From Planctomycetaceae bacterium (GTDB lineage Bacteria; Planctomycetota; Planctomycetia; Planctomycetales; Planctomycetaceae), in NCBI GenBank assembly GCA_020426325.1, contig JAGQQG010000010.1, forward strand, positions 1-64,000: DNA of 64,000 bases. The letters run 5' to 3'. Of this stretch, positions 1,719 through 19,483 are shown piece by piece (position 1 is the first letter of the stretch; the number at the start of each line of letters is the position of its first letter). A program made the position numbers and the translations under genes. The notes below the pieces were generated by a model, which searched no databases, was not told where the DNA came from, and saw only the letters and a program-made list of their open reading frames with translations.

Positions 1719-4700
1719 TCAATCTCTGGTTCCACAATATCGGAATTGGCGACTGTTCACGATTCTTTCCACAAGTTTTGACATCCCGGCACCACTTTTC
1801 AGGTCGGCCATCATCTCTTCAATCAAAAAGGTATCTCCAATCATGACACTCCGCCCCAGCGCGTAACCGAGCAGTTTCGTGCACAGATTCTCATAGAACA
1901 GGTCCCGCTGGGATACGACGTACTCATTCAATGCCGCGAAATCATCAATTTCCGTTCCGTCCCGGAGGATTCCGGAGGTATCAATTTCTGTTCCGTTTCG
2001 ATACTCCCTTCGCAGGCGGCCGATAGGATCAAACTGTTCCAACGCAAATCCCAGCGGATCGATCCGTGAATGACAGTTGGCGCAAGACTCCTCACGTCGA
2101 TGGGCTTCGAGCCGCTCTCTCACAGAGAGACCGTCGCCGGGCTGGTCATCTGACGAGATCGAGCCCACATCCGGCGGTGGAGGCGGGACAGGTGTTCCCA
2201 GCACTCTGCGGAGGACCCAGTCCCCACGTTTCACAGGACTCGTCCGGAGCGGCGCGGATGTCAGAGTCAGAACGGCCCCCAGGCTCAAGACTCCGCCGCG
2301 ATCGAAATGGTTAGCGCGTTCGACTCGCTCAAAACGATCGGAGAGTGCAACGTCGATGTCCACTCCGTAATGCTCCGCCAAGTCTTGATTCAGAAACGAG
2401 TAATCGGCAGAGAGGATCTCCTGCACAGGTCGATCCTCGCGCACAATATGATCGAAGAACAGGATTGCTTCATCGTACATTGCCGACTTGAGGGTCTCTG
2501 TGAATTCGGGAAACCTCTGTGGATCGATCCCGCTATAGTTGTTAAAGCGGTAGAAGCCGAACCATTGACCGAAGAATTCCGTCGCGAATCGGCGTGACTT
2601 ATTGTCACTGAGCATTCGTCTAGTCTGGGCCACCAGCACGTCCGGATCTGTCAGCTCACCGGAAGCAGCAATGTTACGGAGTTCCGTGTCGGGAAGGGAT
2701 GACCACAGGAAATAGCTCAAGCGGCTTGCCAGTTCCCAATCCGAAAGAGGCACCTCATCATCCGATTCGCTTGAGCGTTCGGCTCGATAGAGAAAGTCCG
2801 GAGCCAACAGGATGCGGGTCAGCAGGACGCGGATTGCCGCATCGTGCTGAAGCTCAGAATCGGTCCGCAACTCATCGTAAAACGATCGCAGACGGACTTT
2901 CTCCTCATCCTTGAGCTGACGGCGCCAGGCACGGCTGGCAAACTCCAGCATGTCCTCGACGTGCCCCACCTCTGCACTCCGAAACGACTTCTGGATGACT
3001 TTGTATTCACGATGCAGGTTTTGCACGTATTCTCGCGGCTCCTGCGGGAGATTCTCAATCCATGCAGGATCGAGAGTGGCAACACGGCGACCGTTCAGGT
3101 CCAAGCCGAATTTGTCCGAGACGAATTGCAACCAGGCGTCGTGATACTCGAATGAGCCCAGCAGGTCAGACCACGCATGATCCAATTCTTCACGCGTCTT
3201 GTTGTCCAGGATGTTGTCCACCAGAAACTGGTCATCACGGTGATACTTGATCCGCACGTGAAAGTGATTCCGCTCCGGATTGTTGTATGAGCCATCGAAC
3301 GGTGGCGGGATCGGGTCTCGGTCAGAAGGTGCCGGTTCTCGGTGAGAAATCGGAGGGAGCAACTTCGCGAATTCGAGCACACCTGCTCTCCAGCGATCAA
3401 ACCCCGGTCTCTCCGAGTTGGCCAGTAAAGCCGAGAGCGACTTCCCCTGGTCCGTTTCTTCTCTCTGTGTGATCGAGCAACGAACGATCGAGTCTTCTCC
3501 GAATGTGTCATCGAGTTCGGCAGTCAGAGAGAGACGAGCGGATCGCGCACCTTCCGGGATTTGCAAGCGAAATGTCCGAGGTTCATTTGCCAGGGTGACA
3601 AAGTCGTCGGGGCCAATGGTTCCGCCGTGCGGATGTGTGCCGAATCCGAGTCGATCGAGATCCTCCTGCGAAAGAACTCGACGGAGCAACTCAGCTGGCT
3701 TGGCAGGTGCATCGGGTGTGTTGAACGAGAGCGTCGGCTTGTGCCAGATGACACCGGGGTTCGTGTTCTCGTCGCCATTCGCGGATTCGACCAACAACTG
3801 AATGTGAGCCGTTTGCGTCCCTTCGGGCCAGTTGATGTTCATATCGAACGCCTGCGTGGGTGACAGGGTGAATGTCTCGGTCCTGATGACGGGGGCATCC
3901 TCCTTGTTGTCGGAATTGATTCCGAGTCGGCTATGCCAGTCGTCGAGTTTCTGGAACAGTTCCTGACACTTCTTGCGGACGTTCTTCTGAAATTCGATGT
4001 CATCAGAAGCAGGAGCCGGTAATTCTTTCCAGGCGGAAATGATCTCCGATGTTGGAAACGACTGGACATCGCTGTTGAACACAGACCAGAGATACTCCGC
4101 AAATCGCTCCTCGACTCCTTCGGCAGCAGCCAATTCCGCGAGCGTCCTCTCTTCAAGCCCCAGTTGACCACGAAAGCGAAACCGCCACATCGCGTAGAAT
4201 GCTTGTGGGTATCGTTCAAGGCCATAGGCAATGGCTCCCTCACCCGCGGCTTGCCTGAAACCATGCCTGCGATAGATGTCCTGAATCCGATTGATCGCTG
4301 ATAGTTCGAGTCCGGTCTGCCCCGGATCTTGATAGAACCGAATCGGCCCCGTGCCGATGACGGCATGCTCGGCAATGTGGTTCGCTGTTTCGAGATAGAG
4401 TTCAAGCGTCGAATCCTGCACAAACTGTGCGACACCTGCGTTCGTGAACCCCTCACCTCCGACAGCATCGCTGACCGTTCCATTCGTGAGGCCAATGTTG
4501 AGACCGGTGAGGTCATGGATCGTATGGGCATACTCTGCACTGGTGAGTCGACGGATGATCGACGGTCCCGGGTCACCGGCATGCTTCTCGGCAACACTGC
4601 GCAGCTCGTGTCGAACGAACGATGTCAACTCTCGCCGCTGCGATGGACTGAGTTGCTCCGCCGAAGCAGGCGGCATTTCGCCAGTGTCCAACTGCTTCAT

Positions 4701-4934
4701 TACCTTCCGCCAATCGCGGAATTTAATAGCAAAGGAAGACTCCCTCAGCATCTCTTCCAGATCGACGCCGGCCTCTGCATGTTGCTCGCTATGGCAATCG
4801 AAACAATAGCCCTGGAGGAGAACGCCCGCCGATTCAGAGGGTGACTGCTGGGCAGAAACCGTCTGTGCAATCATTCCCCAGACGATCCACGTGACGACAC
4901 CACAAAGGGAACGTGAAGGAAGCAAATTGGACAT
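1719..4934 (-). CDS. DUF1592/DUF1588/DUF1585 cytochrome c-type protein
   Basis: About 1071 residues from the ATG at 4934, preferred over an ATG nine codons upstream because a GAGGG precedes it and a signal peptide follows directly (cleavage near VSAQQ). Seen in order: a haem-binding CFDCH about 45 residues in (PSCyt type); a DUF1587-like RRLTSAEYAHTIHDLTG; a long central insert; DUF1595-like and DUF1592-like segments (WELASRLSYFLWSSLPD); DUF1588 (RTSPVKRGDWVLRRVLG, then a second CANCH); and a C-terminal DUF1585 (KLLGYALGRS). This is the usual architecture of large planctomycete surface or periplasmic cytochrome-like proteins of unknown substrate. It is the first gene of a two-gene operon with the DUF1552 gene. 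Confidence 0.92.
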   Translation of the reverse strand: MSNLLPSRSLCGVVTWIVWGMIAQTVSAQQSPSESAGVLLQGYCFDCHSEQHAEAGVDLEEMLRESSFAIKFRDWRKVMKQLDTGEMPPASAEQLSPSQRRELTSFVRHELRSVAEKHAGDPGPSIIRRLTSAEYAHTIHDLTGLNIGLTNGTVSDAVGGEGFTNAGVAQFVQDSTLELYLETANHIAEHAVIGTGPIRFYQDPGQTGLELSAINRIQDIYRRHGFRQAAGEGAIAYGLERYPQAFYAMWRFRFRGQLGLEERTLAELAAAEGVEERFAEYLWSVFNSDVQSFPTSEIISAWKELPAPASDDIEFQKNVRKKCQELFQKLDDWHSRLGINSDNKEDAPVIRTETFTLSPTQAFDMNINWPEGTQTAHIQLLVESANGDENTNPGVIWHKPTLSFNTPDAPAKPAELLRRVLSQEDLDRLGFGTHPHGGTIGPDDFVTLANEPRTFRLQIPEGARSARLSLTAELDDTFGEDSIVRCSITQREETDQGKSLSALLANSERPGFDRWRAGVLEFAKLLPPISHREPAPSDRDPIPPPFDGSYNNPERNHFHVRIKYHRDDQFLVDNILDNKTREELDHAWSDLLGSFEYHDAWLQFVSDKFGLDLNGRRVATLDPAWIENLPQEPREYVQNLHREYKVIQKSFRSAEVGHVEDMLEFASRAWRRQLKDEEKVRLRSFYDELRTDSELQHDAAIRVLLTRILLAPDFLYRAERSSESDDEVPLSDWELASRLSYFLWSSLPDTELRNIAASGELTDPDVLVAQTRRMLSDNKSRRFATEFFGQWFGFYRFNNYSGIDPQRFPEFTETLKSAMYDEAILFFDHIVREDRPVQEILSADYSFLNQDLAEHYGVDIDVALSDRFERVERANHFDRGGVLSLGAVLTLTSAPLRTSPVKRGDWVLRRVLGTPVPPPPPDVGSISSDDQPGDGLSVRERLEAHRREESCANCHSRIDPLGFALEQFDPIGRLRREYRNGTEIDTSGILRDGTEIDDFAALNEYVVSQRDLFYENLCTKLLGYALGRSVMIGDTFLIEEMMADLKSGAGMSKLVERIVNSRQFRYCGTRD

Positions 4935-8347: not shown

Positions 8348-11300
8348 ATGACCACTCAAAATGTCCATCAAAATCATGCTGTTCACACCTCAGCCAATGA
8401 CGACGAATCTGAGACCAAGAATGACCAGTTCGGCCGACAAATCGCGCCTGAGTACATCGTCGGGATCGGCGCATCGGCTGGCGGCTTGGAATCGTTGGAG
8501 CGGCTGTTTGGAAGTATGCCCGACAACACAGGAATGGCGTTTGTCGTCATCCAACATCTGTCTCCAGATTTCAAGAGCTTGATGGATGAGTTGTTGGCAC
8601 GACACACCGACTTACCAATCCATCGTGCCGAGGATGGGATGAGGGTCGCCGCGAACTCTGTCTACCTGATCCCTCCCAAGAAGGAAATGATGATCTCTGA
8701 TGGACGATTGTTGTTGACAGATAAGGATCCCAAACAATCGCTCACCATGCCGATCGACCGCTTCTTTCGGTCATTAGCTCAAGATTGTGGCAAGCAATCG
8801 ATCGGCATCATCCTCTCTGGCACAGGAAGCGACGGCTCACGAGGTGTGCAGGAGATCCATGCTGCCGGAGGCTTGGTGATCTGTGAATCGAAAGAGACTG
8901 CCACATTCGATGGCATGCCGAACGCAGCACTCGAAACGGGTGTTGTGGACCAAGTGATGTCGCCTGATTTGATTCCGTCTGTGTTAACGAAGCACCAGTT
9001 ACGAGTTTCACTCGGAGAGATGTCGAACGGCGTGCAGGACGTTCCTGCTGAGGCGATCGATCAAGTGTTCAAGTTGTTGAATGACGAATTCGGGATCGAC
9101 TTCTCGCATTACAAGCCGAACACGGTCAGCCGTCGCATCCAACGCCGGCTGTCGCTGGTGGGCGTTCACTCGTTGGAGGACTACCCGGAACGGTTGAAAT
9201 CGGATCAGGACGAACTGAATGCGCTCTATAAAGATCTGCTGATCGGCGTGACGCGATTCTTCCGTGATCGCGAGGCGTTCGAGAAACTCCAATCTGAGGT
9301 GATTCCTGACTTAGTCGAACGTGCTTCGACTGAAGAAGAACTGCGAATCTGGGTTGCCGGCTGTGCGACAGGTGAAGAGGCCTATTCAGTGGCAATTATG
9401 CTCCACGAAGGGCTGTCGAATGCTGGGAAGCCGATCAATGTGAAGATCTTCGCGACCGATGTTCACCGCGCTTCGCTGGATTACGCCGGCACCGGTATCT
9501 ACAGCGAGGAAGCATTAGCCGACGTCGAACCTGAGCTTCTGTCGCGATACTTCAACAAGCAGAAAGACGGCTATCACGTCATCCCTGATCTCCGTCAGAT
9601 GATCGTGTTCGCAACTCACAATGTGATGTGCGATGCACCATTTACCAAACTTGATCTGATCACCTGCCGCAACCTTCTCATCTACTTCCAGACGACCGCT
9701 CAGAAGAAAGCGTTGTCTCTGTTCCACTTCGGACTAAAGACAGGAGGATGGTTGTTCCTGGGGCCCAGTGAATCTCCCAACGAACTGCTCGACGAGCTCG
9801 ACGTTGTCGACATGCATTGGAAGCTCTACCGCAAGAGCCGTGACGTTCGACTTCCGAACGACATGGACTTGCCACTGGGGAAAACGCTTCGACCGATCCG
9901 TAGTCGGTACAGCACAGCTCCTGTCACAGCGACCGGACAGCCCGATCTGACATTAGTTGCCGCCTATGATGAGATGCTGGAGAAGTTCATGCCACCCGGC
10001 ATTCTGATTAACGACAAACGAGAACTGCTGCACACATTCGGCGGCGCCGAGAAATACTTGAAAGTCGCCTCCGGGCGGCCGTCGAGTGATGTCCTCAGTC
10101 TGTTCGATCGCGAACTGCGAAACGCGGTCACCGGCGCCGTCCAGCGAGCCCTGAGAGATAACTCCTCCGTGAGCTATACGGGGATCCGACGCCAAAACGG
10201 ACCAGCCGAGCAGAAACTTCGCGTCACGGTCGATCCGTTGGAGAACCGACGTTCTCAATCGACGCAGTTACTGATTCGGATCGATGAGATTGAACCTGCA
10301 TCGACGACGCCCCGAGAGAACGGAGAAAAGAGGGTCGACAAAGACATGCGGCAGATGACTGCTGATCGGATTGAGGATCTTGAGGATGAGCTTCGGTACT
10401 CCAAAGAGAATCTCCAGGCGACGATCGAAGAACTTGAAACCAGTAATGAGGAAATGCAGGCAACCAATGAAGAACTCGTTGCATCAAACGAAGAGTTGCA
10501 GAGCACCAACGAGGAACTTCAATCGGTCAACGAAGAGCTCTACACCGTCAACGCCGAATATCAGAAGAAAATCGCGGAGCTTTCGCAGTTGACAAGTGAT
10601 ATGGATAACCTCCTGGAAAGCACGGATGTTGGCACGATCTTTCTTGACCGAGAGTTGAATATTCGAAAGTTTACGCCGCAGATTGGGGCGAAGTTTCATT
10701 TGCTCCCACAGGATTTGGGTCGGCCCATCAGCAGCTTTTCACACAACCTGATGCACCCAGATCTGATGGATGACTTGGCGTCAGTCGTGCTCAGCGAGCA
10801 GCCATTCGAGAGAGAGGTTCAGGATAGTCAGGGGAAATGGTCGTATCTCCGAATCCTGCCCTATCTCACCAAGGGGAAACAGGTCGATGGAGTCGTGATG
10901 ACGGTCATCGACATCACTCAGGTCAAGCATGCGCAGGAACAACTTGCAATGGCCGTCCGTCGTCGTGATGAGTTTCTGGCGATGCTCTCGCATGAACTAC
11001 GAAATCCACTTGGTGCAATCCTGAATGCAACTCATGTCATCGATCGAGTCGATGTCAATAATGATGTTGTCCTTGACGCATTCAAGGTTGTTCGTCGTCA
11101 AGGGCGTCAGATGTCACGGCTGTTGGACGATCTGCTGGATGTCTCTCGTGTGACACACAACAAGATCGAGTTGCATATGAAGCCAGTCGACGTGAGTGCG
11201 ATTGTCGAGAATGCCATCGATGCTGTGAAACCAATGATCGATGCAGGTGGGTTAACGTTGACGACGGAAATCGCCGACCAGCAACTGATTGTGTTCGGCG

Positions 11301-12091
11301 ATGAATCGCGGCTTCAACAGGCACTCTCCAATTTGCTCGCGAACGCAGCCCGGTACACACCCGTTGAGGGAGAAGTCAAACTGATCGCCACATCCGAAAG
11401 CGAGGAGGTCATCCTCCGGGTGATCGACAATGGAATGGGAATCCCCGCCGAAGACTTGGACTCGATTTTCGAGTTGTTCGTTCAGTCCGATCGATCGCTG
11501 CATCGAGCCCAAAGCGGGATGGGCATCGGTCTGACATTGGTGCGCTCGATTGTTGAGATGCATGACGGCGAAGTGACGGTGACGAGCGAGGGGCTGGGAA
11601 GGGGCAGCTGCTTTGAAATTCGCATTCCTTCCTACAACCCCAAGTTTGACGAATCAGTGAAAGAGCCTCAAAGCCAGGAGGATACGTCGACACTCTTCAG
11701 TGGTGGCCGTGTGGTCCTCGTTGAGGATCAACAGGACGCTCGGTTGATGCTGCGACGGCTCCTCGAGTTGGAAGGTTACGAGGTGCATGTGGCTGACAAC
11801 GGAACGAAAGGGCTCACAGCGATCGAGCGCATTCGCCCCGAAGTGGCTCTCATCGACATCGGATTGCCTGGAATCGACGGATACGAACTAGCACGCCAGC
11901 TTCGTCAGAACCTCGGGAACAACCATACCTATCTGGTCGCACTCACGGGGTATGGTCAACAGGATGATGTCGAGGCTGCAATGAACGCCGGCTTCGATGA
12001 CCATCTCGTGAAACCACTTGACCTCGAAAAGCTGTCGAAAATTCTCAAGCTCCACAGCCGGAGGAGTACAGAAGTCAATGAGTCCGTCTAA
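8348..12091 (+). CDS. CheB-CheR-PAS-histidine kinase-receiver hybrid
   Basis: 1247 residues; GGAGG precedes the ATG. Domains in order: CheB methylesterase at about 35-215 with its triad S43 (GASAGG), H70 (VIQH) and D162 (SGTGSDG); CheR methyltransferase at about 225-490 ([21 protein letters not shown]); a PAS-like stretch; a long heptad coiled coil at about 671-742 made of repeated TNEELQS-type units; PAS at about 750-860; HisKA with phospho-acceptor H882 (MLSHELRNP); HATPase (DNGMGIP); and a C-terminal receiver with D1170. This architecture is known in non-chemotactic CheB/CheR fusion kinases. No receptor, CheA or CheW is nearby, so a stress or envelope signal is more likely than motility. 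A second CheB-like gene follows after 6 bp. Confidence 0.95.
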
Positions 12092-12097
12092 GGAGTC

Positions 12098-12793
12098 ATG
12101 CAAACTGAGGCGATGGATTTGGCAGCCTCAACACATTGCTTCGCGAAACTGCAACAGGATCTATTTCGTGAACGGGAAAGTGAGGCCCACGTGGCCACTG
12201 AATCAAAACGATTTCCGAACCTGCTCATCGTCTTAGGTGCCTCCGCTGGAGGTCTCAAGCCAATTCGCGAAATCATTGGATTGTTACCCCAGGAATTCCA
12301 GGGAGTGGTCATCGTAGCAACCCATCGTGACCCCAAGTTACCTTCAAACAACTTGGTCGAGATTCTTGATCGCGATGCTCGCATCGCCGTTCGTGAGCCG
12401 GTCGAGGGAGAGAAGTTGCAGTGCACGACACTTTACGTCGGAAAACCGGCGGAATCAGTTCTCATTGACGGTCGAAGTATTCACATCGACGAAGTCTCCA
12501 GTCATCTGGAACGACTACAAAGAATTGATGAACTGTTTATCTCGGCAGCAAAGCATGCCGGTGAAAACGCAGTCGGTGTGATCCTGTCCGGAACTCTCTT
12601 CGACGGCGTCGCCGGATTGCAGGCGATCCACGAAGCGGGTGGGAAGTGCATTGTGCAGAATCCCAGAGACGCATCGTATGATGACATGCCGTTGAACGCG
12701 ATCAAAGCCGTCGACATCGATTTCGTCGGCACAACCACGGAGATCGCGAGCCTGCTGGTCGAGCTTTCAGCGGGGCGAACCTGTCAGGAATAA
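12098..12793 (+). CDS. Stand-alone CheB-type methylesterase domain protein
   Basis: 231 residues, almost wholly a CheB catalytic domain (about 41-225) after a 40-residue N-terminal region; there is no receiver. The triad is kept: S49 (GASAGG), H76 (VATHRD) and D169 (TLFDG), although the usual GMGxDG around the aspartate is changed to GTLFDG. It begins 6 bases after the hybrid kinase stop, so it is co-transcribed with it. AGGAG lies only 2 bases before the first ATG, so the ATG at 12113 is an alternative start. It may work with, or compete with, the CheB domain of the hybrid kinase. Its substrate is unknown. Confidence 0.85.
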   Translation: MQTEAMDLAASTHCFAKLQQDLFRERESEAHVATESKRFPNLLIVLGASAGGLKPIREIIGLLPQEFQGVVIVATHRDPKLPSNNLVEILDRDARIAVREPVEGEKLQCTTLYVGKPAESVLIDGRSIHIDEVSSHLERLQRIDELFISAAKHAGENAVGVILSGTLFDGVAGLQAIHEAGGKCIVQNPRDASYDDMPLNAIKAVDIDFVGTTTEIASLLVELSAGRTCQE

Positions 12794-12834: not shown

Positions 12835-13590
12835 TCAAGCGACTGTCGTCTGAGCGCCATGCAGTCGATTGATGAGTTCGACCGGATCGAGTGGTTTCGG
12901 AAACCATTCATTCACGCCGTCGGGTCCAACCTCAATTCCCATTTCATCCGGCGACGTCGCGCTGACCGAGTAGATCGGCAACGAATGCAATGCCTGCTGA
13001 GCTCGAATCCAGCGGACCGTCTCCGGACCGTTACGATGAGGCATTCTCATATCCAGGAGGACATAGTCGGGGATCGATTCGAAATTGCTGAGGTGGTCAA
13101 TGGCTTCGTCGCCATCGCGGGCGGTGGAGACGTCGTACCCTTCCAGACGCAGCAGACCGGCAAGCAGTCGAAGTTCGTTGGGGTCATCTTCGACGAGGAG
13201 AATTCGATTCTCACGCTCAGTCGAGAGTTGTTCGCTTTCTACACTGTTCCGTTGAGAGTTCGCAGCTTCAACTTGTGACAGTGCGTGAATCGCTTGTACG
13301 AGCGTCTCCTGCCCCTCGTCGAGATTGCCGAGTTCAAAGTTTCGCTGAGCCAAGGTCAGGCCCAGCTTGATTTCATTCAACCGATTCTTCCACTCATGAG
13401 TGGTGAGGTCGTTCGGCTTGACGGGCAGGTTGTCAATCGTCGGAGCGACTTCGCCCCGAATGATGGAGATATCATCAGGAGCTTCGATGCCGATGCGGGC
13501 AGCACGCCCTTTGACCGACAACAGACGCACAACGACGCCAAGACTGGGGAACCGGAAATCTTGCTCCGGCTTGCGAGAGAGAACGAGCAT
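12835..13590 (-). CDS. CsrA-response regulator receiver fusion
   Basis: 251 residues. Residues 1-48 read as CsrA/RsmA: MLVLSRK at the start, VKGRAARIGIEAPDD in the middle, and IIRGEV at the RNA-binding end. The usual GE(S/T)I..G segment after the first strand is replaced by EQDFRF. A linker with helical character (about 60-125) leads to a receiver domain (about 127-248) with acidic pocket D135/D136, phospho-acceptor D180 (LLDMRMP), a serine in SVSATS and lysine in FPKPLDP. CsrA binds GGA motifs in mRNA leaders; the receiver suggests phosphorylation-controlled RNA binding or dimerisation. It faces the CheB gene tail to tail with a 41-bp gap. The fusion is seen; the mechanism is inference. Confidence 0.9.
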   Translation of the reverse strand: MLVLSRKPEQDFRFPSLGVVVRLLSVKGRAARIGIEAPDDISIIRGEVAPTIDNLPVKPNDLTTHEWKNRLNEIKLGLTLAQRNFELGNLDEGQETLVQAIHALSQVEAANSQRNSVESEQLSTERENRILLVEDDPNELRLLAGLLRLEGYDVSTARDGDEAIDHLSNFESIPDYVLLDMRMPHRNGPETVRWIRAQQALHSLPIYSVSATSPDEMGIEVGPDGVNEWFPKPLDPVELINRLHGAQTTVA

Positions 13591-14048
13591 GTCTGAGGAC
13601 TCCTGATCCTTGAGAACGGTTACTGTACCATCGCGTTCATCGCGACGATCTACGATCCATCACCCCTCAACAGGAAGGGCAACCGTGTCCCCAGTCGATG
13701 CCCGCAATCATGCGGCACGCTCAGGCAGATGTCCTCAGGCTCGAATAGCTCCGATTCAACATCGCTGGTAGCAGAATTGTCATCAACGCGATTCTGGAAA
13801 ACAAGGTGAAAGCGGTCGTTTTCTTACCGATTTCGGCCGAATCGTGCGTCGGGAATTGTCTTACAACTGTTCGCGTTTAACGTAACGTCTGGGTAAGTTG
13901 TCTTTCACGAGCCTTAAGCCACTTTCTCATTGGCTCGGGGCTCGATTAGCAGAATCTCTCTCTCGTCCGGTCGTCGAGACTGTTGCGATTGCTCGTTGCT
14001 GAACTCAACAAGCGGTTGGCAGTCTGAAGTCGGAGAACGTGCCTTCGA
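13591..14048. other. Intergenic region upstream of the CsrA-receiver gene
   Basis: 458 bases without a convincing gene. It holds a weak sigma-54-like string (13679-13693, minus) and otherwise nothing I can name. It also borders the 3' end of the DUF2254 remnant. Confidence 0.4.
13679..13693 (-). promoter_or_regulatory. Weak sigma-54-like string before csrA-receiver
   Basis: Minus strand reads TGGGGA-N5-TTGC with correct GG-N10-GC spacing, but only TGG of the -24 box is kept. It lies 89 bases before the ATG at 13590. Confidence 0.25.
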
Positions 14049-14876
14049 TCATCCGTTTGTCCATTCGGGTTCGCGTTGCCCTTGATCGTCACCCGATCCA
14101 TCCGAACTCACACGCTGGTCAGCATCGCGGAGGTGTGTGATGTCATACTCCGACAGTGGGATCATCTGGGCAGAAGTAAGAAGCTTGTCAGCGTGTTCGT
14201 TCAGGAGCGCGCGTCGATCTTCGTTTCTCGTGCAGCTGCGAACAGTTGCGATCGTTTGCATCATCTGAATGGCAGCGTTTCGATCGGTCGCGTAGTACGG
14301 TCGCAGTTGATCAATGATAGCGGAGCAGACATCGCGAAACGTGACGGACTTCGCAACGACTCGGAGGTTCTCGTCGCTGTCGTAACGGTACGGTTCAGGG
14401 TCCTGCCGGTGCGTCATCACGATCAATCCACTCCCCAGCCATCGCATGCAGATGATGGCCGTATATGGATCGTTCACGCCGGGAGAGAGTGCTCTCGCTG
14501 CCGACTCCACAAGTTGATCGACAATGAACAACAGATTCTGATGCGGAGTCCGGGCGACTCCGAGGGCGATGCAATCCTGCAACTGCTGAGACAGCTCGTC
14601 ATCCACCGACTCTCGCGGCTAGACCGAGAAACCGACCTGATCACGATGGATGAAGTCACCCGGACGAAAGTGCAGCTGAATCACCAGGTCATTCTCAGTG
14701 GCGATTTCGAGCAGTCCGCCATCATCAAGAGTCTGTGCATATCCGTCTCGATTCTCGCCGACAATCACGTTGGCAGCTTGGTCAGTAGCGGGCACATGTC
14801 TGGACGGCTGAGTAACATCATCCGGCGAAGCATAACCGATCATCTCCGAAAACAACTCTTCGATTGAGGAAGTCAA
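14049..14876 (-). pseudogene. DUF2254 membrane protein remnant (5' truncated, in-frame TAG)
   Basis: The frame from about 14876 to 14049 encodes only the C-terminal, soluble part of a DUF2254 protein. The N-terminal half with the expected membrane helices is missing. Recognisable parts are ENDLVIQLHFRPGDFIHRDQ, then ARTPHQN, then QLVESAARALSPGVNDPYTAI. Between the two conserved blocks the frame is interrupted by TAG at 14619-14621 and continues in the same frame as PRESVDDELSQQ. In DUF2254 proteins this spot often reads V-W-P, so a TGG to TAG change is plausible. A GTG at 14606 could restart translation of a 185-residue fragment. Its broken 5' edge abuts the broken 5' edge of mscL. Confidence 0.75.
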
Positions 14877-16091: not shown

Positions 16092-16248
16092 GTGGTCCAC
16101 ACGTCCGAGTAAGTCATCGCCTTACACCTGCGCACTTTTCTTAAATCATTCTCCGTTCCTCCAACAATTCAGTCTGCCGGGCGTGCCCGGTTGCTCCTGA
16201 ACCTGCTACGATCCTGCGACTGTCGTGGCAGGGTTGGAAGTGACGCCA

Positions 16249-17865
16249 ATGAACAAGAGAAGTGCACACAACTTGGGTGGATCGGGCGACAAATCCGACC
16301 GTCCAATGCCATCGGAAGATGACCTGCTGAGTAGCTTTGACTCAGTAACCGTGATCATCGATACCGCGTTACATCTCCAACGCGTTACTCCCAGCGCGAC
16401 AAAGCTCTTCGAACTCCCCGAAGGTAGACTCGGGCAACCGGTCGCTGAGGTGTCACTCAAGTTTGAGGATGAGCGTCTCGTCGAAGATTGCCAGTCAGTG
16501 CTGAGTGAACTGACGCCCATCGAACGACAGGTCTGCACTGATGACGATGTCTGGTACTTGAGGCGGGTCTTTCCATTCCGAACTCATGACAATCGCATCG
16601 ATGGCGTGGTGGTGTCGTTCACCGATATCACCGAACTGAGAATGTCGCTTCGGGATCGGCAGAAGACCATCGAGGAGTTGGAACATCAGATCGAAGAGCG
16701 GACCGGCGCGATTCAAATGCTGTTCGATGTCGCTTCGGCCGCCAACGAGGCGGACACCGTCAAGCAGGCAGTGATATACGTGCTTCAACGAGTCTGTGAC
16801 TATAACGGCTGGGTTTTTGGTTACATCCTTGTCCCAGATGCCGAGCACTCGGACGAATTAGTCGTCGCGGACATGCGTTACGAGCATGAGGAGGGTCGCT
16901 TTGCCAAGTTCTGGGAGGCAGCCGTCGGCAAGCGTGTCAAAAAGGGTTCTTCGCTCCCCGGCAAAGTCTATGAATTGGCCAAAGCCGGCTGGCTGGCGGA
17001 CGTCAATGACGACTGGCTCGAGCGTGAACTCGACATAGAAACGATGATCGACATCGGCACCGCCATCGCCTTTCCCGTCATGGTGGAAAAGCGGGTCGTC
17101 GCCGTGATGGAGTTCTTCAGCGACGAGATCCTTGAGCCGCAGGACGATCTCATTGAGGCCATGCAGTCGGTGGGCACTCAACTGGGTCGAATCATCGAGC
17201 GCAAGAACCTCGAAAAGCAAGCCGCCCTGGCAACACTGCGTGAGCAAAGGCGAATCGGACGCGAGTTGCACGATACGGCTCTCCAACAGTTGGCTGGCTC
17301 CAGTCTGTTGATGGAATCGTTGATGCAGGATCTGTCCGAAGCAGACTCACCCCTGCTTTCAGACGCCATGCGAATCAACGAGTCGTTGCACGTCATGCAG
17401 GAACAGCTGCGAGTCATCAGCAGAGGATTAATGCCCGTCGAAGTTGAAGCGGGAGGGCTGTCGAGAGCGTTGGAGTTGCTTGCAGACCGCACTTCACAAC
17501 GACACGAAATCGATGTGAAGTTCGTGGATAAATCGGATTTCACGATCAGCGAAAGTGTGACAGCGACCAACCTTTATCACATCGCGCAGGAGTCTGTCCA
17601 CAACGCGATTAAGCACTCGGGAGCCACTGAGATTCTGATCTCGATCGAACGACGAAATGAAGAACTGGTGCTCAGCGTCAAGGACAACGGCACCGGCATG
17701 AACATTGACCAGACAGAAATGGACGGAATGGGACGTCGCATCATGCGATATCGAGCGGGGGTTGTTGGTGCCGCTCTCGAGTTCACTTCCCCCGCCGAGG
17801 GCGGCACATGCGTCTCTTGTGTGTTGCCGATCTCTGAGATCCCCGATGATGGGGACCTCGCCTGA
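16249..17865 (+). CDS. PAS-GAF sensor histidine kinase of the NarX/HisKA_3 class
   Basis: About 538 residues from the ATG at 16249, chosen over the GTG at 16225 because GGAAG sits 8 bases before it. There is no membrane segment, so the protein is cytoplasmic. Domains: PAS at about 25-130 ending in VVSFTDITEL; a short coiled coil; GAF at about 155-310; HisKA_3 with phospho-acceptor H341 (RRIGRELHDTALQQL); and HATPase with IAQESVHNAIKHSGA (N box) and DNGTGM. Kinases of this class partner with NarL-type regulators. Two such regulator genes follow at once: one convergent, 14 bp away, and one downstream on the same strand. Confidence 0.93.
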   Translation: MNKRSAHNLGGSGDKSDRPMPSEDDLLSSFDSVTVIIDTALHLQRVTPSATKLFELPEGRLGQPVAEVSLKFEDERLVEDCQSVLSELTPIERQVCTDDDVWYLRRVFPFRTHDNRIDGVVVSFTDITELRMSLRDRQKTIEELEHQIEERTGAIQMLFDVASAANEADTVKQAVIYVLQRVCDYNGWVFGYILVPDAEHSDELVVADMRYEHEEGRFAKFWEAAVGKRVKKGSSLPGKVYELAKAGWLADVNDDWLERELDIETMIDIGTAIAFPVMVEKRVVAVMEFFSDEILEPQDDLIEAMQSVGTQLGRIIERKNLEKQAALATLREQRRIGRELHDTALQQLAGSSLLMESLMQDLSEADSPLLSDAMRINESLHVMQEQLRVISRGLMPVEVEAGGLSRALELLADRTSQRHEIDVKFVDKSDFTISESVTATNLYHIAQESVHNAIKHSGATEILISIERRNEELVLSVKDNGTGMNIDQTEMDGMGRRIMRYRAGVVGAALEFTSPAEGGTCVSCVLPISEIPDDGDLA

Positions 17866-17879
17866 GACCGGGAACGCGA

Positions 17880-18569
17880 TCAGCGATTTTCCAACACCCA
17901 CTGGACGGCGTGCCTCAACAATTGTGTCCCGCCGGCGATCCCGAGTTTCGTTTTGAGATTCTCACGGTACGACTCGATCGTCTTGGGGCTAAGCTTGAGT
18001 TGGGCCGCAATGTCCCTGACTGTCTTCCCTTCGCCGAGCAACTCAAAGACCTGTAACTCACGGTCCGAGAGTGACTCGATGGCGGACATCTCCGGTCGGC
18101 CTTCATGACCAACCATTCGGTTGAGCAGCCGGTCGTTCATGGCCTCACTGAGGAACAACTTACCCTTCAGGACATGCCGAATCGCGTTGATCAAGTGTCG
18201 AGTTGAGTCAGCCTTGTTGACGTACCCAAGCGCCCCAGCGCGGAGGGCTCGCTCTGCGTACAACTGCTCATCGTGCATGGAGATCACGAGCGTGGTGATC
18301 CGGGGGAACCGGGATTTCACCTGCTTACAGAGTTCGAGACCACTTCCCCCCTTCAGCGAAAGATCGATAATCGCCAGGTCGGGCTCCGCACGTTCGCAGA
18401 GTCTGAGGGCATCCATTGTGTCCGCAGCGACCGCGCACACCTCCAAGTCGGCATGTCGTGAGATCATTTGTTCGTACCCCTCGCGAACAATCGGATGGTC
18501 ATCAACAATCAGTATCTGAGCCGGTTTCGTCCCGGTTCGAGAATTTGGTTGGGTGAGTGTGACCGACAT
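17880..18569 (-). CDS. NarL/FixJ-family response regulator
   Basis: 229 residues. Receiver domain at about 18-135 with acidic pocket D23/D24 and phospho-acceptor D69 (IIDLSLKGGSG); LuxR-type helix-turn-helix at about 165-215 (LSDRELQVFELLGEGKTVRDIAAQLKLSPKTIE, in parts). It is a DNA-binding transcription factor. It is convergent with the NarX-like kinase gene (14-bp gap) and divergent from a close paralogue at 18821, sharing 251 bases of upstream DNA. The kinase probably phosphorylates it; this is inferred from adjacency and class. Confidence 0.93.
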   Translation of the reverse strand: MSVTLTQPNSRTGTKPAQILIVDDHPIVREGYEQMISRHADLEVCAVAADTMDALRLCERAEPDLAIIDLSLKGGSGLELCKQVKSRFPRITTLVISMHDEQLYAERALRAGALGYVNKADSTRHLINAIRHVLKGKLFLSEAMNDRLLNRMVGHEGRPEMSAIESLSDRELQVFELLGEGKTVRDIAAQLKLSPKTIESYRENLKTKLGIAGGTQLLRHAVQWVLENR

Positions 18570-18820
18570 GGTTCCAGCCTTTCATCGGCAGACAGAATTA
18601 AGATGAGCACGATATGACCCAATTGTCACGCTACCCGTTCGTCGAGACAATGTCATCCAGAAACTCCTTGCACTCGTGTCAGACTATCCCTGACAAGCCA
18701 CTCAGGGCGATGCCCGGGGGGTCAGGTGCGCAAAGTCCCACGCGAATGGTTTCCGGCTTTACGTAGAATGTTATCATCCATCCGCCCGGCCTCCTCCACT
18801 TGTCGATAACGTTTCCACCC

Positions 18821-19483
18821 ATGACAACCGCAGAAAAAACCCGCGTATTCCTCGTTGAGGATCATCCTTTCGTCAGGGACGGACTGCGGTCGCGAATCGA
18901 TCGTCAGGAAGATATGGAGGTCTGTGGCGAGGCTGAGGACGTGCCCAGTGCGATCACCGCAATCGGTGATCAATCGCCCGACGTGGCGATCGTTGATCTC
19001 TCTCTCAAATCGGGAAACGGACTCGACTTGATCACCCGGTTGAGCGAGAAGAAATCCAACGTCAGAGTGATCGTCGCGTCCATGCACGATGAAAACATCT
19101 ATGCAGAACGCGTCGTGAAGGCGGGTGCCATGGGATATGTCCATAAGCAAGAGGCATCGACAAGAATCGTGGAAGCCATCAGGCAGGTTGTTCGCGGAAA
19201 ATTGTATCTCAGCGATGAGATGAACGACCGCCTGATGCGTCGTGCCATTCGGGAAGAAGAGCAGACCGGCGACAGTGTCGACCAGTTGACGAATCGCGAA
19301 TTGCAAGTCTTCGAGAGAATCGGTGCCGGTCAAACGGTCAATGAGATCGCGACTGCTCTCTCACTCAGTCCCAAAACCATCGAGACCTACCGAGATCGAA
19401 TCCGTAAAAAGTTGAACCTCGACTCGTCAACACGTTTGATGCACTACGCTGTCAAATGGGTCGCGGAGTACATGCAAAGGTAG
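18821..19483 (+). CDS. NarL/FixJ-family response regulator (paralogue)
   Basis: 220 residues from the ATG at 18821; a TTG 21 bases earlier is less likely. No clear ribosome site is visible. Receiver with D59 (IVDLSLKSGNG) and C-terminal LuxR helix-turn-helix (LTNRELQVFERIGAGQTVNEIATAL and SPKTIETYRDRIRKKL). It resembles the regulator at 17880-18569 throughout (for example ISMHDEQLYAERALRAGALGYV against ASMHDENIYAERVVKAGAMGYV), which points to a local duplication. It may answer to the same kinase and read different promoters. Confidence 0.92.
   Translation: MTTAEKTRVFLVEDHPFVRDGLRSRIDRQEDMEVCGEAEDVPSAITAIGDQSPDVAIVDLSLKSGNGLDLITRLSEKKSNVRVIVASMHDENIYAERVVKAGAMGYVHKQEASTRIVEAIRQVVRGKLYLSDEMNDRLMRRAIREEEQTGDSVDQLTNRELQVFERIGAGQTVNEIATALSLSPKTIETYRDRIRKKLNLDSSTRLMHYAVKWVAEYMQR

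Follow-up and report, generated by a model that had tools for sequence, protein, structure and literature searches.

Genes and Domains at the Locus

The window, i.e., the whole stretch of 64,000 nucleotides of planctomycete DNA analyzed here (Planctomycetaceae bacterium, contig JAGQQG010000010.1), contains a gene encoding a 251-aa protein in which a CsrA domain, a helical hairpin similar to the DHp domain of histidine kinases and a response regulator receiver (REC) follow one another in a single chain (Table 1). The gene is read from the minus strand (13590-12835), which the sequence-only reading had left unstated. Convergent with it are the genes of a hybrid kinase and a separate CheB methylesterase, the gap between the latter and the fusion gene being 41 bp, and a candidate stem-loop ends five bases before the fusion start codon. 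The window also holds a separate classical two-component cluster at 16225-19483, formed by a PAS-GAF-HisKA_3 kinase and two nearby LuxR-type response regulators, and an ORF at 14049-14606 (minus strand), which matches only the last third of DUF2254 and may belong to a membrane protein gene that is truncated or frameshifted.

Table 1. Features of the CsrA-REC fusion locus (positions in the window).
Feature	Position	Strand	Basis
CheB-CheR-PAS-HisKA-HATPase-REC hybrid kinase, 1247 aa, proposed phosphoryl donor	8348..12091	+	Pfam
CheB methylesterase as a separate 231-aa protein, encoded between the hybrid kinase and the fusion	12098..12793	+	PF01339, 137.9 bits
CsrA - DHp-like hairpin - REC fusion gene, 251 aa	12835..13590	-	ORF and Pfam matches; ~100 distinct relatives of the same order
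Receiver domain, residues 130-243	12862..13203	-	PF00072, 75.8 bits; Foldseek matches to receiver structures
D180, receiver phosphoacceptor	13051..13053	-	kept in 99/102
DHp-like helical hairpin, residues 61-121	13228..13410	-	AF2 helices; hhalign to HisKA, 96.3%
N69 (H-box H+4 position)	13384..13386	-	kept in 88/102
H65, candidate phospho-accepting histidine	13396..13398	-	92/102; aligned with HisKA phosphoacceptor His
CsrA domain, residues 1-52	13435..13590	-	PF02599, 46.3 bits; sequence match to CsrA/RsmE structures
R45, equivalent of CsrA R44 (RNA contact)	13456..13458	-	kept in 102/102
Leader stem-loop AGGA-UCAGGAG-UCCU, GGA in loop, candidate CsrA site	13596..13610	-	family-wide enrichment of ANGGA and flanking stems

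In the Pfam search, both terminal domains of the window fusion scored well above their cut-offs (PF02599 46.3 bits against 27; PF00072 75.8 bits against 30.2). Together with ~100 relatives of the same architecture, these matches bear out the claim of the sequence-only reading that CsrA is fused here to a complete receiver with D180. The same reading took residues 49-126 for a linker; in fact, they contain a conserved helical hairpin with a histidine, H65. REC follows directly after the hairpin, with no HATPase match in the window fusion by Pfam or in the AF2 model. Pfam returned no ANTAR match for this protein either, and the NCBIfam search gave only generic REC matches below the cut-offs.

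Distribution of the Fusions

When 59 relatives were searched with the first 113 residues, the matches were ~250-aa proteins with the same order of CsrA, middle segment and receiver. The global scan was seeded from a 5-member subset, the 17-member alignment having no sufficiently conserved stretch. Among the matches listed from GTDB-representative contigs, full-length fusions were found only in Planctomycetota records or in an unclassified bacterial bin, with Rhodopirellula rubra, R. maiorica and Bythopirellula polymerisocia among the hosts. A class-wide profile search of 398 genomes produced ~110 strong matches that cover CsrA as well as the segment after it, while in a phylum-wide sample the fusion was present in 15 of 392 genomes, all belonging to the class of the window, Planctomycetia. 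Conservation was assessed on 102 distinct fusion sequences.

The CsrA and Receiver Domains

In a phmmer alignment, the first 54 residues of the window fusion match RsmE/CsrA structures, a single residue being inserted near position 17. Compared with free CsrA, the fusions have an additional residue and the motif FP at positions 14-15, P15 being retained in 100 of the 102 sequences. The early segment EQDFRF, previously pointed out as altered, does differ from free CsrA; yet, this is a trait of the whole family and not particular to the window gene. The CsrA part is otherwise well conserved (R6 and R45 in 102/102, E47 in 98/102, L4 in 94/102), and the window fusion has both L4 and R45, which correspond to RNA-contact residues. 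CsrA-type proteins recognize ANGGAN presented in a hexaloop, L4 and R44 of Escherichia coli CsrA being critical (PMC7652899).

The genome from which the window derives (6.85 Mb in 424 contigs) yielded 11 CsrA-domain matches, mostly short free ORFs. One of its contigs (C405, 1156-1422) has two weak CsrA matches in a single 94-aa frame, possibly a decayed copy. Outside the planctomycetes, a 118-aa ORF of a Melainabacteria member (locus L093, 4198-4545) encodes a tandem pair of CsrA domains, the first of which is degenerate.

The receiver of the window fusion has the complete set of active-site residues, i.e., the acid pair E134/D135, the phosphoacceptor D180, S210 and K232, and Foldseek of the full window model returned receiver structures. 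Among the fusions, D180 is retained in 99, and D135 and K232 each in 98, of the 102 sequences.

CsrA-Type Sites in the Leaders

We found that the leaders of the fusion genes are rich in the motif recognized by CsrA. ANGGA occurs 1.18 times per 50 nt in fusion leaders versus 0.22 in shuffled sequences and 0.19 in other genes. The GGA near the start is an ANGGA in 92 of 97 fusion leaders versus 41 of 141 elsewhere, a comparison in which the starts of control genes are less certain and to which ribosome-binding sites contribute. Watson-Crick stems of at least 3 pairs flank the GGA in 56% of the leaders, as compared with 18% for shuffled flanks and 13% for other genes. Of 71 non-redundant leaders, 13 contain the exact ANGGAN hexaloop closed by at least 3 pairs, whereas 1.9 would be expected and 1000 shuffles gave at most 7. 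When folded in full, the leader of the window gene proved no more stable than its shuffled versions (z 0.41); thus, the claim regarding leaders relies on the statistics of the family. The enrichment of ANGGA, often within small hairpin loops, suggests that the fusion is autoregulated. Stand-alone csrA genes exhibit the same leader trait, so that both autoregulation and regulation by CsrA paralogues are possible.

A Middle Hairpin Related by Profile to DHp Domains

In the first 17 fusions, H65 and N69 are the sole invariant residues between CsrA and REC, and in the larger set they are retained in 92 and 88 of 102 sequences, respectively, while the other hairpin positions vary widely. AF2, run with a 20-sequence alignment, predicts helices at residues 61-86 and 90-121 (pLDDT mostly >90 over residues 71-100), and the isolated hairpin segment is predicted to adopt the same fold from its sequence alone; how the domains are placed relative to one another in the model is uncertain (pTM 0.54). 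When the profile of 63 non-redundant hairpins was compared by hhalign with the HisKA domains of the neighboring kinases, the match reached 96.3% probability and placed H65 on the phospho-histidine, as against 0.5% for a coiled-coil control and at most 2.9% for 20 column shuffles. In Pfam, HisKA was the top family, matched by 21 of 60 hairpins (best 4.5e-6), followed by SPOB_a with 4 of 60, and the hairpin of the window fusion on its own gave no Pfam match. TPR models also match some hairpins, and single-sequence matches alone would not decide the issue.

A PDB profile search superimposed the H-box of CpxA on that of the fusions, although with a weak match (E 0.61), and Foldseek of the hairpin alone returned generic helical proteins; like the Foldseek run with the full model, it speaks neither for nor against a DHp fold. 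Apart from the fusions themselves, a scan of the window genome with the hairpin profile recovered DHp domains belonging to true kinases, including a ~260-aa kinase on another contig (C219) whose HEIRNPL is aligned on the hairpin H-box. Pfam detected no HPt domain (PF01627) in the fusion, which is also absent from the five HPt matches of the genome. Taken as a profile relationship, the evidence indicates that residues 61-121 are a helical hairpin related to the DHp domain of histidine kinases. An acidic residue directly after the histidine (H+1) is the usual autokinase base. Unlike autokinases, only about half of the fusions have an acid there, which fits phosphotransfer without an ATPase domain.

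Kinase Neighborhood

To describe the neighborhood of the fusions at 96 loci, ORF calls were labeled by HMMs grown from the hybrid kinase of the window. The co-occurrence with CheB/CheR hybrids that the sequence-only reading had proposed as a check was indeed observed: CheB is located within ~5 kb in 49 of the 96 loci, nearly always as part of a CheB-CheR-PAS-HisKA-HATPase-REC protein of 1200-1500 aa adjoining the fusion. The remaining loci include those with a shorter HisKA-HATPase-REC kinase of ~530 aa. By chance, CheB would be expected in ~0.8% of such stretches (88 CheB matches in 20 genomes). At the loci of stand-alone planctomycete CsrA, CheB was found in 0 of 15 cases and HATPase kinases in two. 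The postulated link to neighboring CheB/CheR hybrid kinases is therefore well supported by a conserved gene neighborhood.

As for the 92 fusions with H65, a kinase lies within 5 kb in 73 cases and within 600 bp in 64. In 69 of the 73 cases, the kinase closest to the fusion ends in REC (49 of 53 after removal of near-duplicates), whereas in the genome of the window a same-frame C-terminal receiver accompanies 8 of 30 HATPase matches. The exceptions are four fusions nearest to a kinase lacking a C-terminal REC and the 19 of 92 with no kinase within 5 kb. The kinase gene lies upstream on the same strand in 23 cases, convergent in 22, downstream on the same strand in 13 and divergent in nine; thus, the linkage is not only operonic. 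The chain of the window hybrid kinase contains no HPt domain, and the five HPt matches of the genome all lie away from it.

A split version of the system was observed at one locus (L247), where a separate CsrA ORF (111 aa) and a hairpin protein (140 aa) without receiver are encoded on the minus strand less than 1 kb apart, at 3136-3555 and 4413-4745. A PAS-HisKA-HATPase-REC kinase and a LuxR-type regulator are encoded close to the pair.

Fusions Without H65

H65 is absent in 10 of the 102 fusions. In four of them the receiver is either damaged (L058 and L060) or missing (L059 and L228), and no kinase is present nearby. The two damaged members (L058, 6001-6819; L060, 608-1456) are of Mariniblastus type and have lost the receiver acid pocket and the lysine together with H65. 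Five other fusions (L190, L218, L224, L225 and L226) keep all receiver residues, and the kinase closest to each of them is of CheB-CheR-PAS-HisKA-HATPase architecture and has no REC; in the same five loci, an H65-positive fusion adjoins a REC-bearing kinase (checked by Pfam for L225 and L190). The tenth, L206, is an exception in that its nearest kinase bears a REC.

The five loci have an operon-like organization, in which a pair of CsrA-REC fusions brackets two or three CheB-CheR proteins. One of these proteins is a kinase lacking REC and another bears a REC; usually there is also a third, devoid of any kinase part (~850-880 aa). Such loci constitute a natural experiment on when the phosphotransfer step is needed.

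We had first assumed several independent losses of H65, which the tree rejected. It requires two losses among full-length members, L059 and L228 being too short for inclusion, and the total is about three if L059 is counted as kin of L058 and L060, one loss accounting for the whole group next to REC-less kinases. The association of H65 with REC-bearing kinases gives a Fisher p of 0.0045 in the non-redundant set, a value not corrected for phylogeny, and since it relies on few events, the correlation is suggestive and does not constitute proof.

Proposed Phosphorelay and Alternative Explanations

Hybrid kinases normally need a histidine phosphotransferase. This may be an HPt domain or, as with Spo0B and ChpT, a pseudo-kinase of DHp type, and the role of the latter between hybrid kinases and regulators is established (PMC9981736). 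The hybrid kinase of the window has neither its own nor an adjoining HPt. The hairpin of the fusion is the obvious candidate for this function. The mechanism we favor, with a probability of roughly 0.6, is a four-step phosphorelay that gates RNA binding by CsrA. The CheB-CheR-PAS-HK-REC kinase would autophosphorylate on its HisKA histidine and pass the phosphoryl group to its own C-terminal receiver, from which it would move to H65 and then to D180 of the fusion. Phosphorylation of D180 would alter, i.e., raise or lower, the binding of GGA hairpins at ribosome-binding sites by both CsrA domains of a presumed dimer, and the targets would probably include the leader of the fusion itself, possibly among other mRNAs. 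The proposal of the sequence-only reading that RNA binding is gated by phosphorylation is thus well supported as far as the conserved gene neighborhood goes; the gating step itself we infer, and given the hairpin, its likely mechanism is a phosphorelay rather than simple two-component phosphorylation.

In a broader version, to which we give an even chance, the fusion would be the single-chain end-station of the relay, uniting a minimal DHp-type phosphotransferase, a terminal receiver and a CsrA effector, through which CheB-CheR hybrids would directly control translation of mRNAs with GGA hairpins. In the operons with duplicated pairs, one branch would then have the relay histidine and be paired with a receiver-bearing kinase, and the other would lack this histidine and be paired with a kinase that has no receiver.

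The neighboring kinase might instead phosphorylate D180 directly, as in a plain two-component system, the hairpin being a kinase-derived dimerization spacer in which the histidine is kept for structural reasons. A DHp-like hairpin would suit a dimeric protein such as CsrA, a receiver linked to a kinase needs no relay, and the H65-less fusions with intact receivers next to REC-less kinases suggest that D180 can work without H65. Such a spacer, however, would have no need of an almost invariant histidine and asparagine in an otherwise variable hairpin, and the kinases beside H65-positive fusions nearly always end in REC, which normally calls for a phosphotransferase. We consider this explanation unlikely.

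Another option, which we regard as improbable, is that H65 and N69 are not part of a forward relay but act on D180 or the kinase receiver as an intrinsic phosphatase or phosphate sink. An H-box histidine followed by an asparagine at H+4 recalls the motif by which HisKA/HisKA_2 domains dephosphorylate their partners, and both residues are conserved. Yet, the association of H65 with REC-bearing kinases is predicted by the relay and less directly by a phosphatase, and N69 is replaced in a few H65-positive members (e.g., L044, L049 and L054).

It seems very improbable that the CsrA part has lost RNA binding and serves only as a dimerization or protein-docking unit, for instance in the manner of FliW-bound CsrA. 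The family-wide alteration of the early beta hairpin, with the FP motif and the extra residue, would agree with such a change, but L4, R6, R45 and E47 are kept in nearly all or all fusions, and CsrA-type sites in the leaders are far above controls, although free CsrA paralogues could act there. Finally, an assembly artefact, a frameshift between the two halves (a possibility raised by the sequence-only reading) or a functionless one-off fusion is refuted by ~100 distinct planctomycete proteins that share the same order and length and have conserved active-site residues.

The phosphorelay reading, through the co-occurrence of the relay histidine with hybrid kinases, gives clear mutational predictions for H65, D180 and R45.

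Comparison With Known Systems

In the open-access literature we found no description of a CsrA-receiver protein; it may be described elsewhere, and the CsrA-REC combination may already stand in domain databases. E. coli CsrA does appear among orphan response regulators in one review table, but the entry concerns free CsrA, which has no receiver.

The fusions share with the CsrA/RsmA family (PF02599) an above-cut-off domain match, L4, the R44 equivalent and leader sites like those of autoregulated csrA genes, while differing in the attached signaling domains and in the extra residue and FP motif of the early hairpin. Free CsrA, by contrast a small protein, is under the control of sRNA sponges or FliW, and signaling usually reaches it only by these routes. 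In the GacS/BarA - GacA/UvrY - RsmY/CsrB - CsrA cascade, a hybrid kinase is likewise linked to CsrA activity, but through transcription of sponge sRNAs, whereas in the fusions the link appears covalent and direct. The fusion probably lets a neighboring sensor kinase control translation directly, which, if true, would constitute a direct path from sensor kinase to translation.

Like the pseudo-kinase phosphotransferases Spo0B, ChpT and PhyT, the fusions have a DHp-type hairpin with a conserved histidine, no active ATPase and an association with hybrid kinases (PMC9981736). However, their hairpin spans only ~60 residues, lacks a degenerate ATPase domain and is joined in one chain to the final receiver and effector. 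Since no degenerate ATPase-like domain follows the DHp part, we liken the fusion to Spo0B and ChpT in its presumed way of working and do not classify it as a member of that group.

ANTAR response regulators (AmiR/EutV/NasT type) also combine a receiver with an RNA-binding output. In contrast to their C-terminal ANTAR domain, the output of the fusions is an N-terminal CsrA, expected to act on ribosome-binding sites and not by antitermination. Response regulators with RNA-binding output, CsrA and pseudo-kinase phosphotransferases are each known; judging by the literature searched, what is apparently new is that a single chain unites all three and has conserved hybrid-kinase partners. If the proposed function holds, such a protein would represent a second type of RNA-binding response regulator besides ANTAR.
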